Assembly: GCA_015499985.1 (NCBI GenBank)
Contig: JAAAUF010000050.1
Coordinates: forward strand, 1-64,000
Direction of reading: 5' to 3'
DNA from: Haplosporangium gracile
Taxonomy: Eukaryota > Mortierellomycota > Mortierellomycetes > Mortierellales > Mortierellaceae
DNA length: 64,000 bases
Shown: piece by piece, positions 13,640 through 21,704 of the stretch
Layout: every line of letters begins with the position of its first letter
Numbering within the stretch: the first letter of the stretch is position 1
Position numbers and translations under genes: made by a program
Notes under the pieces: model-generated
The model's database searches: none
What the model saw: only the letters and a program-made list of their open reading frames with translations
Told to the model about the DNA's origin: nothing

Positions 13640-15711
13640 TTAGTGCTTCTTGGGTGCAGGGGGGCTAATTTGTTGCAAAAGATACCAATAATTAAGGTTA
13701 GCAACCGGTATTCCTCACTTCAACAACCATTTTCTCAACCATGATAGTCAATTGAACACGAGTCTGGGAAAAGAGACTTACTTGTACAAGATCTTGCGGG
13801 TCTTGAGACCGGCCCACTTGTGCCTCTTAAGGTAGACGGAGAGACCAGTCAAGATAGCGAGCATGGTCAAGGCCTTCATACCCATCTTCTTGCGCTCATC
13901 CATCTCGGGCTCAGCAGCCCAGCTGAGGAAGATGGTGACATCCTTGGCCATCTGGGAGGTGGTGGCGGGGGTACCATCCTCGTACTCGACCAAGCCGTCG
14001 TACAAGACACGGGCCATACCAATGGCACCACCGGGGAAGTAGGGGTTGAAGTTAAGACCCTCACGGACCTCAACACCAGCTGGGGGATCCTGGTAACCGG
14101 TCAAGAGGGAGAAGACGTAGTCCTATTTGTACGTCAAATAACATGAATCTCGCATTAGAATCTCATTCCTCAGACCGTAGTATATTAACCGTGCATCTGC
14201 AATAAATAAAAAATTGCGGACAAGATGAACAGCACTTCAAACTTACAGCACCACCGTGGCGGGCCTTGATCATCAAGGAGAGATCTGGAGGATAGGCGCC
14301 GGCGTTACCGGCTCTGGCCTGCTCCTCGTTGGCGTAAGGCTGGGGCATGTAGTCGGAGGGCTTTCCGGGGCGCTGGAACATATCTCCAACATCGTTGGGT
14401 CCATCGGTGTACTCGAACTCCTCAGCCATGGTCTTGACCTCAGCCTCGGTATGGGAGACACCGATCAAGTTGCGCCAGGCAATACGATCGAGAGAGTGGC
14501 AGGCAGCGCAAACCTCCTTGTAAACCTGGTAACCACGGCGAATGCTATCAGCAGAGAGCAAAAACAACGACAACGACAATGTCAGCGGCGTGTGTTTTCT
14601 TGATCGTCTTTTTTGAGTGGTTTTCCTGATACTGCTTCTTGTCGATTCAATCCAGTCGAGTACACAAGAAGCGGCGCGATATGTATCTCTCAACTGCCGC
14701 GTTCCTATCTTAGATTGTGCTGAATGACATTCCGCGCCAGCTTCCCGATATCTTGAGTGTTTTTTTTTGAGGATATTGCAGTGTCAATTGATTATTACCA
14801 CGGCCAGAACTGTCGATAATAGTTCCCGCGCATGGTTCCGTTTGCTGCCGTTGTAGTTGTTCTTTCTATGCTTTCCGTGAAAAAAAGTCGGGGTCCTGAT
14901 ATTCCGCTAGATATTGATACTGTAAACTGGGCAAAGCGGCTGGTTGAAAAGTGTGCCATAACTTCAATTGCTCCACCCTCTACGCCATGAAAAAAGGTCA
15001 ATTGATAAAGGAAAGAAGAGAGAAGGAATGAAAAAAATCCTTACGCAGCGTGGTCAAAGGTGGCGAGGTTCTTCTTGTGCTCCCAGGCGTAGGCGGGGGG
15101 GTGAAGGCCGTCAGCAGCCATGTTGGCATCGACGGTCTCCATAGACATATAGGCCAAGGCACCAACGGTGGCGACACCAGCAGCAGCCATAGAGACGTTC
15201 TTGGCGTTCTAATTATCATAAGAGCGGGAAGTATGTTTAGAGACGGGTTCACGTTTGTCGTCCAGCAAAATAAAATAAACACGATCTCGATTCCGATTAG
15301 TCCGAAAATACGCGGTATTTACCATGCTGGTGGCAGCAGCAGAGCTGGTGGACTGGTAGCGGGCCTATCGGAAAGTATTTAAAGTGCATGAAGGTAAAGG
15401 GCGGGGGAAAGGCGAGAGGTTAGGCGTATGTGCATGTAGGTGGAAGGCGTAGGTTCGCCGTTTGTAGTGAGTGTTCATGGTTCCGCGTCCAGGTTGATTG
15501 TTTTTAGGGATTGCCTCCACTCCAGCCAGGGACGGTCAAAAATGTCCGAGGGTCGGATCTGTTCGGAGGGGAATGTTGTCGATTTGCCGAAGGTGAGATT
15601 CGCTTGGTTTGTTGGTGGTCCGGTTGTTAAGAGTTGAAGAGAGGGGGTGAGTACCTGGACAGCAAGACGCTGGACAGCCTTGCGAGTCGACTGAGCAGAG
15701 AGGCGAAACAT
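13640..15711 (-). CDS. CYT1: Cytochrome c1, complex III heme subunit
   Basis: Six exons: 15711-15655, 15364-15323, 15208-15045, 14544-14247, 14122-13782 and 13664-13640, with GT-AG introns and consistent phase, giving 308 aa. The start [19 protein letters not shown] and the following Ala-rich hydrophobic stretch (about 38-52) form a bipartite presequence for sorting to the intermembrane space. The c-type heme site is CAACH at residues 100-104. [12 protein letters not shown] carries the axial Met (223). The C-terminal anchor is near 265-285, followed by a basic tail ending NPPAPKKH. That last octapeptide depends on the 25-nt final exon; reading through the intron would instead stop after ILYK. 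The protein passes electrons from the Rieske centre to cytochrome c in the inner mitochondrial membrane. Length and motifs match the fungal family fully. Confidence 0.95.
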
Positions 15712-16038: not shown

Positions 16039-19000
16039 ATGGGTTGCAGAAACCTCTGGAGGATTTTTGCCAACAAGAAGCACAAACCACTCGTTCAATA
16101 CCGCCGCCATCAACGAGGCGCTTTGAAGAGCCCTGACGTGAACGAGGTCCGGATTGACGTCCAAGGCAGCATCTACCCGACGATTCTCTACGCCTACACC
16201 CACTGCCGTTCCCTCGAGGCAGCTCATTCGCTGGTACACAAGCGCATACAGAAACTTGGAGCTTCCGACATCTCTGTGCTCTACCTCGACAGCGACTCTG
16301 CAGAAAAGAAGGAAACTCATGAGAAGCGGGAACAAGCGCGGTCGAAGGCGTTTGGTGAATGCTGACAAGGCCGCCCAGCAGTTTGCCGATCGAGTCGACA
16401 ATAATCTGCGCATACGAAAACAACACTTTATCAACCTCGAGAGGCAGCTCATCAACACGTTTCGATGGGACCCAGCGCCCCGCCACTCGCTTGCAGTGTA
16501 CCTTACAGATCAGAATTGGAATGTTGTGGAGTCGAACACGGAGGAGGACATAAAGATTGCACAAGTTGTATACCCGGAGATACTACCATTTCTGGAGACA
16601 GCGACCTTGTCATTCACAGTACCATCATCACCATTTGGCGCCCAATATCTGGAGACAGGTCTGGAGTCTATCATGAACGATGCCGTGACCACGTTGGGCC
16701 TCGCCAGCAGGAACCATCTTGGCGTGTTGGGTAACGTCTCGCATAATGGCTACAGTCGCAATATATATGATCTCGGTTGCGCTACGAATTTCAAGATTAT
16801 ACAGGACATACCAACTGGTATGTTTGAATCCCGCCCTCTTTTTTTTGATTGTATTATTCTCTATGCTAAGGCACTTACCATTTTTTAATTAGGAATGGAT
16901 GTACCTGCGATGGTTGCTGCCTACCTGTCGGACAAGCGAGCTATTCTTAAGAACAATAAGAATCTGTCTTTTGATGCATCCATCAAAGTCTTTGCGCACA
17001 GAGAACATACGCCGGTTCGCCCTCCCACAGACTTTGGGACAGAAGGCTCGGTTACGACCACACTCGCTAGGAGCTTGGATTCTTCCTTGTCAGATCTCTC
17101 TTCTACTCTCACGCTTGAAGACGTTAAGTCTAGGTTTGAAGATGCCAAGAAGCGGCACACGGAACACAAGAAGAAAGAGGCTGAGGCGAGATCATTGAGC
17201 AAATGGTACAGTTTTTCATCCTTAATAATATGCTTGTATCATCAAGTCTAGTGCATCATTATAAATGCTAACCTTCAAATAGTGTGTCTCCTGAGGGTCG
17301 TGTTCACCGATAGAAGGCAGGCCAACAGTTTTAATCGCTATAGAATCATTGATCGCCCACCTCCCATGGAGAAGAGGCTGGCTGCCAACCACGCATCACT
17401 CCAGGACAAGAAGGTCACCATCGACAAAGCCGAAGGAATCACCAACAGCTCCACACACACAACCACACCACAGACTCAACGGCTTCGGTACTAGGTCGGG
17501 ACGCGAAGTAGGAAAGTTCCTCATGAGCCACCCGTGGCCATGACCCAATATCGTTGGAAGGGATGGACAAAAAAGCCGGGCAGCCCTGTTGATGCATTCA
17601 AACCAAAGCCGCCCAAGCCACCCAAGCCCTTACGCTACATTAAGCCAAAGAATTGGAGTACACTTCTAGGTGCTCTTTCTTGGGATCCTACAGTGAGTTC
17701 ACCATGGGCACACTTTCCGCGAATGTGTACGGTGCTTGGCATGTCAAGCCTCGCAAGGTGGTCCAGACCAGTTCGGCGGCAGGAGATGATACGCATGGTG
17801 AAGCAGGATCGACGGAGGACGCTACTCTAGAAGAAAGGACCGCTGTGGCGAAGGAGGTGGTGGGTTGTGGCAGAGATGCCGTTCGTTAAGCCAACAAGCC
17901 CCAAAAAGCAAGCCCAGGGATTGATTGGAAATTTTATCGAGCTTGTTGTTGATGGAGTGGTTTCATCGGATGACCGGAAGCTGTTGGGGTATTTATGCCC
18001 TCCAATCGAGGCCAAGGCCTCAGAGGGTGCCAATGATGAGCCACAACACTAGACTGATACTACCGTTGATGAGGATGCGGGCAAGTCCGACAAGCAGGTG
18101 AACTTTGTCGCGTGCTTCTTGCGGTATCTCCATTCGGGCAGGGTGCTTACAGGTCGAGGGGATGGTGCACTCGTCATCGAGTTTATTGAGCGTTTGAAGC
18201 AGCTCAGCTTGTTCGGGACACAAGCACCAGCTTCTTTTGGAGGTCAAAAGCTCAGATCCACTGAACTTGTCAAGGCCGTAGCCGCGCAGCTTGCGGTAGA
18301 ATTTAAAAAGATGTACAGAAACGGTGCGCTTGAGCTGCAGGAACAGGTAAAGAACGCATTCTAGATGTTTTTCATGGCCATGTATATATGTAACGTTTAG
18401 TATTATACACTCAAGCACTGTCGTTTGTTTATTTATTCTAATTTAGCTCAAGGCTCAGAGGGAACGGGACCGCAAGTTGAAGCAGGGTAATGGCTCGTCA
18501 TTGAGCGAACCGCTTCAGTCGGACAAGAACACTGAAGGAGTTGTGGAGGTGGGGTGAGGTAAGGTCGAGCGAGTCCACACAGCACCAGCCGCTCAACCCG
18601 GAGCAGCAGCAGGAGTCGACCCAGCAGCAGCAGCGGCAGAAGAAGACGGCAGACGACTTGGACTTGGAGATCCACCACAATTGGAGTGCTGTAGAGAACT
18701 TTGTTAGGTTCAGCAAGTTGACGGGTAGTCCTCGACGATTCATTCCTATTTCCCGCCGAGAGGACGGATTTGTCACCTTTTCGGAAAGAGAGCTGCTCGT
18801 GTTTTTCTGCGACCAATCTTTGCTGGCAAACAAGATCCGGAACCTGCCAAGGATGAGTTTCCGAATGGTACTGCTGTGACCGACTAAGAGAATTGGGGTA
18901 GAGAGTCAGGTTCCGGGGTATTTGATCAGGATCTTTCTCTCCGATCTCAACACCGATGGCCTTACGTCGCGACAGAAAGGCAAGGCCGGGTACAGAGGTG

Positions 19001-20439
19001 CCATCAAATCTTGGAGTTTGAACCGGATCAAGGATTACCTCAGAGATCTCGCACAAGGTATCGTCAAGCCAAAGGACCATACAACAAAAGGATACTTATT
19101 GCAGGGCTCAATTCACTCCGATGGCTTGGAAATTCAGCTTGTGGCTTTCAAGATGAAGGAGCTTCAATCCGCCAGATTCAAGCGTGTACCAGGAGATTGG
19201 TTGCCCAACGACCGATTGACATCGATTGTTTCCGGTGTGGACTATTTTCTAACGGGGATTCGCAACGTTGTCAAGACCAAGGAGGTTGTCATGAGATTCT
19301 GGCCACAAGAGGGATGTGACCCGGAGCAGGTCGAGAGCCAGGAAGATGTTGATTGACTGTGGTCGCAGGACGCGTACGATCCGGAGAAAGATCAAGATCC
19401 TGTATATTAACCTCAATTAGGCGTGCGTTGTTGGAGCCAGTGGTCTACTGCCGGATGTGCACTGGGTTCCGACAAGAAAGGAAAGATGAAGTACCCCGAT
19501 CAGAACACGAAGGGCAAGATAAAGGCCGTTTCAACTTCTACTGCGCCATCCTCCGCTGCGTCGTCTGAAGACGCAAGTGTTGTGGAGTACCTCAAGGAGC
19601 TGGAGTGTATTCAGGATCGACTCGATGACTTCTACAACAGGGACCATATGCGGCTCAAGAGACATGGATGGGATGCTAGCCGGCGCGCGAGGAAGAGTTC
19701 AGGACCATTGCTCATCGCCTTCTTGGGCTAGTTAAAGGATCTATCGGAGCAAAACGGACCCGAAAAATTTGGTCGCTATTAGGATTGGACTTGGACAGTT
19801 CTCCTGCAAGATAGAACTCACGTCTCTCCATGGGACGTTCATGTCGTTCTTTGTACAATTGGTAAGCTCTATTCAACTTCAACTTTGGTGCTTGTACTTT
19901 GTCACCTATGCTACCACTCGTCAATATATTAATCTTCCGCATCCATTTTGCTCTTTTTTAAACCCGGTCATTGGGATACGTTATCGTTGGGATTAACGAG
20001 TTTTAATACATCGAAAAAATGTCCGACATGTTTTAGGTTCGTCTGCCAGGTCAATATTCGGCGGTTGTATTGTCCAAACTGCGAGCAGTTTTTCTATTGC
20101 GATATAATGACGGCGCACAACATGTGTACTATCGTCAAGGACCATCTTCTACATCAACGGTGACCCAAGTATCTCTAGCCCATCGATAAGAACGGTAACT
20201 ATCCCTGAATGGAGGATGACGGTAGCAACAGTAGTCCGGAGTCACCAGCCAAGGACCCTAGGACCGATGCTGGTATTATACCTGTCCCGGGTTCCAAGAG
20301 ATGCAAGCTAATTGACGATGCCGAGCACAGCTTGACTCCTGTGCATGGTACCAAGAGGCGCCAGCTGGAGGAGGAGGAGGATGTCAAGCCCTCCGTACAA
20401 GCTTCCGAGGAACCTAAATTGGAGGATCCAACACTTTAG
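16039..20439 (+). pseudogene. Long decayed gene: XPG/FEN1-like nuclease part followed by RuvC/zinc-ribbon TnpB (Fanzor)-like part
   Basis: The N-part opens MGCRNLWRIFANKKHKP, like the XPG N-terminus, then VRIDVQGSIYPTILYAY and VLYLDSDSAEKKETHEKRE. XPG-I residues follow: VVESNTEEDIKIAQ, then, one frame away, DTTISGDSDLVI, where DSD fits the metal-binding acids. LGVLGNVSHNGYSRNIYDLG fits the helical clamp. An intron at 16819-16892 is still recognisable. Linker and helical segments continue in shifting frames (VNFVACFLRYLHSGRV, LVKAVAAQLAVEFKKMYRNG, TKGYLLQGSIHSDGLEIQLV). Near 19402-19437 a RuvC-I-like strand ends in ACVVGA, with Asn where Asp is expected and a TAG beside it. VGINEF (about 19986-20003) holds the RuvC-II Glu. 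CPTC (20020-20031) and CPNC (20071-20082) form a zinc ribbon, and CDIMTAHNM gives the RuvC-III Asp (20101) with HRD changed. At least eight frameshifts or stops; not functional. That the two halves are one gene is inferred from order, orientation and lack of a gap. Confidence 0.7.
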
Positions 20440-20632
20440 TATATTTTTTTCGTTTGTAGCAACCACTGATTGCGTTTATGTGGCTTCGGTGACGTAATTA
20501 TGGTGCCCATTCTCCTGCTTTCGTGCCACCAACATTTTTTCTTTTTTTCCTCTGATCAGCATTGCTCAAGAACAAACAACTTCACCTCCAATCACCACTC
20601 ACCTATAAAAACAGGACCACAGGACAGCCAGG

Positions 20633-21704
20633 ATGAGACTCAAGAGGACAAAGGACTACAAGCGGTACATGAACATGTACTGCCAGACATTTCATTTCCG
20701 CAAGCCCTACCAAGTCCTTGGTAATGCCTACAGCCTTTCTTTCTTATGTTACCTTTTGGTTACTGTGTCAACGGGGCGAATATGTTGATTCAACTTATGC
20801 TGACCTACATGCTGTCATCATTCTTTAATGATATAGTCGACGCGGATTTCATCCAGACAGCATTGGATCAGCGCATGGATCTCAGGACAAACATTCCCAA
20901 AGTTCTCAGTGACGCTTCCAAACAAAGTAAGTTTCACTTTGGGAGATTTTCAAGGATGCTGGATCATATCGATCGTTCAGACGAGCAAAGCTAATTTTCA
21001 CGTTCTTCCTCTTTACGTTTCTAGTGGTGACACCATGCACGATGGCATTGCTCAAATCCCGTGGTGAGGACGCATCAGGAGCCTTCTTGGCCTCTAAGCG
21101 ATTCGAAAAGCGTCGCTGCAAACACCAGGAAGCCGTTGACGAAGACATCTGTCTCTCGCAAATTATCTCCACCTCTAATCCTCATAACTACGTCGTTGCC
21201 TCTCAATCCAAGAAGCTTCGTTCAAAATTCGGTCAAGTCCCCGGTGTGCCACTCCTCTACATCAACCGTTCCAATCTCATTCTTGAGCCTCCTTCGGATG
21301 CCAGCATGAACAAGTGTAAAGAGATCGAATCCGGAAAGACACATGCTTCGACCAAGGAATTGGCGACCCTGAAGACCGTCAAAGTGACTGGACAAGGAAA
21401 GGTCACGCTCGACGTCAAGGCCGCCAAGAAGTTAGAGGAGAAGCAAGAGTCCAAGAAGCAGAAGCGGGAGGTTCAAAAGGCCAAGCTGCTGAAGAAGCGT
21501 ATGGGACCTAAGGAGCCTAACCCTCTCTCGGTTAAGAAGAAGAAGAAGGTTGTGGCTACTCCTGCAGCAGGAACAGCAGCAGTAGCAACAGTAGCAACAG
21601 TAGCAACAGAAAAGAAGAAGAAAGCCGAAGACGAGAGCGCAGACGGAGCACTGGAAAAGAAGAAGAGGAAAAGAAGAAAGTCAAAGTCTGCAGGCGCCAG
21701 TTAG
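20633..21704 (+). CDS. UTP23: rRNA-processing protein UTP23 (PIN-like, SSU processome)
   Basis: Three exons (20633-20720, 20837-20926, 21025-21704) with matching phase, 285 aa. The start MRLKRTKDYKRYMNMYCQ and FRKPYQVLVDADFIQTAL are diagnostic of the Utp23/Fcf1 family. MVTPCTMALLKSRG and VPLLYINRSNLILEPPS complete the PIN-like domain. The segment RRCKHQEAVDEDICLSQI carries the Cys/His residues of the family's zinc site. The last 90 residues are Lys/Glu/Ala-rich, with KKRMGPKEPNPLSVKKKKK, as expected for a nucleolar RNA-binding tail. Utp23 helps release snR30/U17 from pre-ribosomes; family members often lack the full PIN catalytic acid set. Yeast Utp23 is about 254 aa, so the length fits. TATAAAA at 20604-20610 lies about 25 nt upstream of the ATG. 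Confidence 0.93.

Follow-up and report, generated by a model that had tools for sequence, protein, structure and literature searches.

Among the TnpB/Cas12 enzymes, Fanzors form the eukaryotic branch, and most Fanzor1 proteins have a single RuvC nuclease site. Nucleases of the XPG family act on 5' flaps, bubbles and R-loops. XPG-like nucleases are also carried by proteins of the Academ DNA transposons, where they are paired with the transposon's own transposase and not with a Fanzor. According to the available part of one study, most Fanzor1 (Fz1) proteins have 600-700 amino acids (PMC11423790). Fanzor1 genes have been described from MuDr-like elements of Rhizopus, Phycomyces and Mucor, which, in the part of the 2013 Fanzor survey at hand, lack a transposase and have 9-bp target duplications (PMC3627910), and from an SfAV element that the accessible text calls non-autonomous and without a transposase (PMC10711439). 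This report concerns a decayed gene on the plus strand (16039-20439) of a 64,000-nucleotide stretch of Haplosporangium gracile contig JAAAUF010000050.1, referred to as the window, and the transposon gene family of Mortierellaceae to which it belongs. It is almost certain that this family encodes a Fanzor1 fused to a FEN1/XPG-like nuclease and that both domains are correctly identified. The fuller explanation, in which the window holds the dead DNA-transposon gene for one such XPG-Fanzor protein and the protein worked with a transposase, an omega RNA and two cutting activities, is probable. The fusion was not described in the open-licence literature searched for Fanzor together with XPG, FEN1, Mortierella or Mucoromycota and for TnpB together with XPG. 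The main text of the 2013 survey contains neither "XPG" nor "Mortierella" (PMC3627910), and the portion of PMC10432273 that was available does not mention such a fusion. The sequences are already public, and single proteins are labelled in databases with one or both domains, but no description of the architecture was found.

The fusion is seen best in an intact copy on contig C129 of the same genome. The gene there is uninterrupted, with five exons and four introns (100-104 nucleotides (nt), GT...AG), and encodes 1335 amino acids; the GenBank protein BGZ47_000819 (P0001) of Haplosporangium gracile is identical to it over residues 47-1335. The protein consists of an N-terminal FEN1/XPG-family nuclease of ~340 amino acids, a low-complexity linker and a complete Fanzor1 of ~730 amino acids with REC/WED, RuvC and zinc ribbon parts. 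A full-length search in which 8000 candidates were scored gave 34 homologous proteins, all from Mortierellaceae (Haplosporangium, Linnemannia, Podila, Mortierella, Gryganskiella, Entomortierella, Benniella and Actinomortierella). Both halves are present in 20 of the 34, a set from which P0017 was excluded because its N-terminus is unrelated, and the annotated two-half proteins have 1246-1335 amino acids. The proposal in the preliminary description of this locus, that a single gene joined both nucleases, is borne out by the intact copy and by these homologues. The pairwise distances of the two halves correlate across 18 proteins (r 0.849, with none of 9999 permutations as high) when P0017 and the near-duplicates P0013 and P0014 are left out; an earlier Mantel test that included P0017 gave r 0.50 (n 21). 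When single exons were used, the RuvC exon found 201 proteins (8000 candidates) and the XPG exon 104 (5306 candidates). Among the matches listed (120 of the 201 for the RuvC exon) the named organisms are again Mortierellaceae, with Dissophora, Gamsiella and Lobosporangium added, and the remaining ones are unnamed proteins, mainly metagenome-derived. These protein searches rely on shared exact words and could miss distant single-half relatives. Among viral contigs there were 90 pattern matches, none of which was confirmed as a relative. One homologue, P0032 (Linnemannia hyalina KI688_006789, 1409 amino acids), combines the Fanzor zinc ribbon with a match to a domain model for the Crinkler N-terminus, and may be a merged gene model.

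Both halves have the fold and most of the active-site residues of the enzymes to which they are related. Among the families listed for comparison, the XPG half has a FEN1 fold, with ~15% identity to FEN1 in the structural alignment. The six metal-binding acidic positions of FEN1 are complete in 14 of the 20 two-half homologues, and the equivalents of Lys93 and Arg100 are kept in all 20. The Asp34 position lies outside this six-residue count and is Asp in all six covering rows of alignment A5. With the Pfam model XPG_I, the copy on C749 scores 25.5 bits against a curated cut-off of 24.9, while the C129 copy is under it at 18.2 bits; at E <= 0.1 the model matches 20 of the 34 homologues. The Fanzor half has a Fanzor1 fold over its whole length (REC/WED, RuvC, TNB) and is nearer to Fanzor1 than to any Cas12 in the comparison, which was limited to the families listed, so that other families could also fit. 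The RuvC catalytic set, an Asp, a Glu before the TNB and a second Asp, is full in 15 of the 20. The expected match of the 3' part to a TnpB/Fanzor profile was found, since the TnpB/Cas12f zinc ribbon PF07282 has an E value of 3.5e-13 in C129 and is matched at E <= 0.1 by 28 of the 34 homologues. PF00867 and PF07282 occur together in the precomputed annotation of three of the 34. With the NCBIfam model guided_TnpB, the best of four proteins reached 41.6 bits (E 9.6e-11), which is under the curated cut-off of 100 bits.

The family is present in many copies. In the 37.5-Mb genome there are at least 16 places that match a query from the N-terminal half, at least 27 that match a query from the middle and at least 35 that match the PF07282 model. 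Twenty genome loci and the window were read closely; in nine of these 21 loci the XPG and RuvC parts are colinear on one strand, and in 12 the XPG part is absent, some of these lying at contig ends. On C718 and C578 the matched exons are separated by gaps of ~90-115 nt, consistent with retained introns. Among copies of this genome the synonymous differences are saturated (pS 0.70-0.85), whereas the non-synonymous differences (pN) lie at 0.29-0.47 over the 10 pairs compared for exon 1 and at 0.26-0.43 over the 15 pairs for exon 4. The two are quoted separately and not as a dN/dS ratio since synonymous sites are saturated. The comparison passed over stop codons and includes a number of partly decayed copies. 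Because pN is lower than saturated pS, the sequences indicate that selection maintained both halves during the life of the family. Beside the intact copy on C129, fragments of an older, window-like XPG-Fanzor lie on the minus strand (L058:3-293 and L058:901-1412), with a transposase-like gene between the two.

The copy in the window is a relic of the same gene. Homologues align colinearly with 16039-20292 on the plus strand, starting at residue 1 of the protein and reaching the zinc ribbon, and the strongest pieces have E values of 2e-59 (P0025) and 2e-54 (P0020); thus the motifs in the window are not due to chance. The pieces in the window have no XPG match in Pfam and match the TNB only weakly (PF07282, E 0.001). 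Because the copy is too decayed for Pfam, its domains were identified through the intact relatives. The XPG motifs named in the preliminary description, MGCRNLW at 16039, THEKRE near 16315 and GDSDL near 16594, are in the sequence, as is the CPTC/CPNC zinc ribbon (~20020-20082). That description also held that no unrelated sequence separates the halves. This is true for most of the interval, which protein matches cover, but not for the intron relics or for ~200 nt (18447-18642) whose translation is glutamine-rich and has no counterpart in the homologues. Read by eye, the three GT...AG intron relics occupy the positions of introns 1-3 of the intact copy. The copy had been called dead and it is: there are frameshifts and stops, the RuvC-I Asp is Asn, and HRD reads YCD with the Asp retained. 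The equivalent of FEN1 Asp233 is also gone, a SNDYNKN-type motif reading HNGYSRN with Gly in its place. A RuvC-II Glu had been reported as present. In Fanzor1 the catalytic Glu lies within GLNEYYTSKKCP, directly before the zinc ribbon, and in the window this motif reads GLTSFNTSKKCP, in which Ser replaces the Glu.

Copy number and terminal repeats had been proposed as things to look for, and the analysis revealed multiple copies, inverted repeats and a right end that is conserved. The gene ends at the TAG where the preliminary description placed it, but the element itself continues to the right end given in Table 1. Twenty-one distinct copies share a similar end, ...CTTCGGTGACGTAATTATGGCGCCCATTGTCC, and diverge beyond it, and the outer 20 bases of this end recur inverted on the left side, for example on C508, C841 and C618. 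Genome-wide, the inverted-repeat 20-mer has 62 matches with up to three mismatches against two for the reversed pattern, and a right-end 31-mer has 38 matches against none. An inner block, CTTCGGTGACGT, is present at right ends and absent from the left repeats read, and is a candidate omega-RNA element. According to the available text of PMC10711439, the omega RNA of Fanzor1 elements is thought to include the inverted repeat itself. The element on C508 is 1.2 kb long, with an XPG exon joined to the 3' tail, and that on C718 is 4747 bp long with a weak left end; deletion derivatives of the element exist in the genome. Twelve of the 62 repeat matches fall in the first 60 nt of a contig (C26, C93, C95, C555, C709, C714, C786, C811, C942, C981, C1076 and C1147), as if the assembly broke there, which points to copies that are nearly identical, remained unassembled and would hence be young. 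On C416 (L018:687-760) a left repeat and the right-end block of a second element are ~20 nt apart, with the block just outside the repeat; this is perhaps a neighbouring insertion.

Some copies have a companion gene. On C129, five open pieces on the plus strand (L058:1645-3357) resemble a transposase whose C-terminus carries a SWIM finger (PF04434, E 0.0016; its 18.4 bits are just under the cut-off of 19.6). The genome contains 20 matches to the central piece, 13 of them with E under 1e-10. Eight of the 13 are within 2.1 kb of an XPG-Fanzor piece, and the genes are divergent in all eight (the older minus-strand copy of C129, C441, C343, C1081, C169, C652, C618 and C678). Opposite-strand frames inside the C618 element and these divergent genes overturned an earlier view that the family has no transposase. 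Transposase pieces are enclosed by both inverted repeats on C618 and C217, and on C343 the left repeat lies past the 3' end of the transposase, so the fuller element would consist of the left repeat, a transposase pointing left, XPG-Fanzor pointing right and the right end. On C508, C841 and C718 the left repeat directly precedes the start of XPG, and these copies resemble one-gene forms. SWIM fingers are typical of Mutator-like transposases and the companion is therefore perhaps of this superfamily. The MULE model PF10551 has matches in the genome only on C61 and C1118. Its match on C1118 (E 6.3e-4) is below the cut-off of the model, and the transposase query also finds this contig, weakly (E 9.9e-4). 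A repeat-like motif, CAGGACAATGGACTC, and its variants (L054:3725, L011:1321 and L058:1576) lie between the divergent XPG-Fanzor and transposase genes on C441, C169 and C129, and might be a route to one-gene forms. In C441, C169 and the minus-strand copy of C129 it was considered as a left end and set aside, as its position between divergent genes means that it may not be an end. The features of the window copy are collected in Table 1. Its neighbours are ordinary host genes, for cytochrome c1 (13781-14783, minus strand) and a UTP23/Fcf1-type protein (exon 20931-21704, plus strand).

Table 1. Features of the decayed XPG-Fanzor gene and of the element end in the window.
Feature	Position	Strand	Basis and remarks
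Exon 1 relic, FEN1/XPG-like nuclease domain	16039..16817	+	Frame lost past ~16362; Asp233 equivalent lost; domain identity via intact relatives; exon end by eye
Intron 1 relic, GT...AG	16818..16892	+	Same place as intron 1 of the intact copy; by eye
Exon 2 relic, where the XPG-like part ends and the linker begins	16893..17205	+	Homologue matches; limits by eye
Intron 2 relic, GT...AG	17206..17282	+	By eye against the intact copy
Exon 3 relic, with the low-complexity linker and the beginning of the helical Fanzor part	17283..18346	+	Several frameshifts; homologue matches; limits by eye
Intron 3 relic, GT...AG, 100 nt	18347..18446	+	By eye against the intact copy
Exon 4 relic, with the REC/WED-type part of Fanzor1 and RuvC-I, whose catalytic Asp is Asn	18447..19861	+	Homologue matches and fold of homologue; 18447-18642 unmatched; limits by eye
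Relics of intron 4 and exon 5, with the RuvC-II motif lacking its Glu, the CPTC/CPNC zinc ribbon, the RuvC-III Asp, the tail at the C-terminus and the stop TAG 20437-20439	19862..20439	+	PF07282 E 0.001, under its cut-off; homologue matches
Conserved element right end CTTCGGTGACGTAATTATGGTGCCCATTCTCCTGCTTTC	20484..20522	+	Includes right inverted repeat 20496-20515 and right-end block, the candidate 3' part of the omega RNA

How might the two nucleases be used? It may be that the transposase moves the element, in cis or, for one-gene copies like that in the window, in trans. Transcription of the right end would yield an omega RNA, by which the Fanzor half would be directed to DNA that matches the insertion site, and RuvC would cut the opened target there. 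The tethered flap nuclease would then cleave the junctions between single-stranded and double-stranded DNA in the same R-loop, or trim the cut ends. A break of this kind would not simply be rejoined, and repair could copy the element back. That both nucleases act on the same DNA has an even chance of being right. The full proposal, a single-chain RNA-guided dual nuclease in which the Fanzor makes the R-loop and XPG cuts its junctions, and which selfishly helps a SWIM-finger transposon by breaking the emptied site, is tentative and less likely than not.

Several observations weigh against this account, either as a whole or in part. At least one catalytic residue in one or both halves is missing in seven of the 20 two-half homologues: P0011 has D179N, P0010 a gap at D233, P0030 a gap at the RuvC Glu, and P0015 D233T and no TNB. 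The other three, P0012, P0013 and P0014 (Mortierella sp. GBA35, AD031 and NVP41), have in common a change of Asp179 to Gly in XPG and of the RuvC Glu to Lys, and are possibly a domesticated or dead lineage. The consensus RNA structure of the right end is not convincing (RNAalifold, -0.37 kcal/mol for 21 copies in a poor alignment). None of the five copies tested as two-ended has a target-site duplication, some of these being decayed and two having doubtful left ends. No left repeat was seen just before the intact copy on C129, and the best candidate for a left repeat of the window copy is 10 substitutions off and not better than shuffles. Upstream of the window copy no transposase relic was found (best E 0.87). 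Apart from the SWIM finger, the transposase-like pieces on C129 match no Pfam transposase model or other Pfam family, and their catalytic residues were not identified.

Among other explanations, it could be that the fusion is real but that the XPG half does not act on the Fanzor R-loop. It may instead process transposon ends or gaps during excision and repair together with the transposase, or be a platform that binds DNA structures. The transposase-like gene beside several copies is consistent with this, and the XPG-like nuclease of Academ would be a precedent, for which a search of open-licence papers gave nothing usable. However, the tethering to a complete Fanzor1 and the correlated divergence of the halves suggest joint action, and the conserved metal-binding residues and the Lys93/Arg100 pair argue against a purely structural role. 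This explanation is considered unlikely.

It is far less probable that the halves are two adjacent genes of one transposon, fused only by gene prediction. Annotated proteins with one half do occur, which the preliminary description had named, for intact homologues, as a case that would speak against the fusion, and the halves are on adjacent locus tags in Podila humilis (BG004_006508/006509) and Linnemannia hyalina (KI688_004862/004864). Many one-half proteins are flagged partial, and the adjacent tags look like split gene models. The frame on C129 spans both halves over four introns without a stop, exon 3 is a single open frame through the linker, annotated proteins hold both halves, and the distances of the halves correlate. 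It is barely credible that XPG-Fanzor is itself the transposase, with two nucleases that excise and insert the element: the one-gene copies on C508 and C718 hold no other gene between their ends and no target-site duplication was found, but a transposase-like partner is present in eight places and inside the repeats of C618 and C217, Fanzor elements without a transposase are known from the available parts of two sources (MuDr-like, PMC3627910; SfAV, PMC10711439), and neither nuclease family is, to our knowledge, known for strand transfer.

The natural fusion with a structure-specific flap nuclease illustrates a way in which a DNA-repair enzyme may have been added to an RNA-guided cutter in eukaryotic elements. 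The two-gene copies with a transposase-like partner make the role of the Fanzor for its transposon directly testable, and assays can draw on intact natural sequences of several species.

Among the closest known systems is Fanzor1 (SpuFz1, GtFz1 and PpFz1). The fungal protein shares with it the fold of the C-terminal ~730 amino acids, the RuvC Asp, the Glu in the loop that precedes the zinc ribbon and the second Asp, as well as the four-Cys TNB, the location in a transposon and a conserved element right end. It differs in having a FEN1-family nuclease and a linker in front, for a total of ~1300 amino acids; the extra part of PpFz1 is a ~100-amino acid insertion in RuvC and not a nuclease. TnpB and Cas12f have a similar zinc ribbon and RuvC-III region, but the fungal protein is far under the curated TnpB cut-off. 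Unlike FEN1, EXO1 and XPG (Rad2), the fungal XPG half is in a mobile-element protein, fused to a Fanzor that by family is an RNA-guided nuclease. The SfAV element resembles the one-gene copies in having inverted repeats and Fanzor1 as its sole gene, but it has viral and insect hosts, and no XPG domain is mentioned in the part of the source available (PMC10711439). The MuDr-like Fanzor1 elements are likewise inverted-repeat elements with Fanzor1, and the SWIM finger of the companion gene here is typical of Mutator. Here, however, some copies retain a transposase-like gene, no duplication was seen, and an XPG domain has been added.

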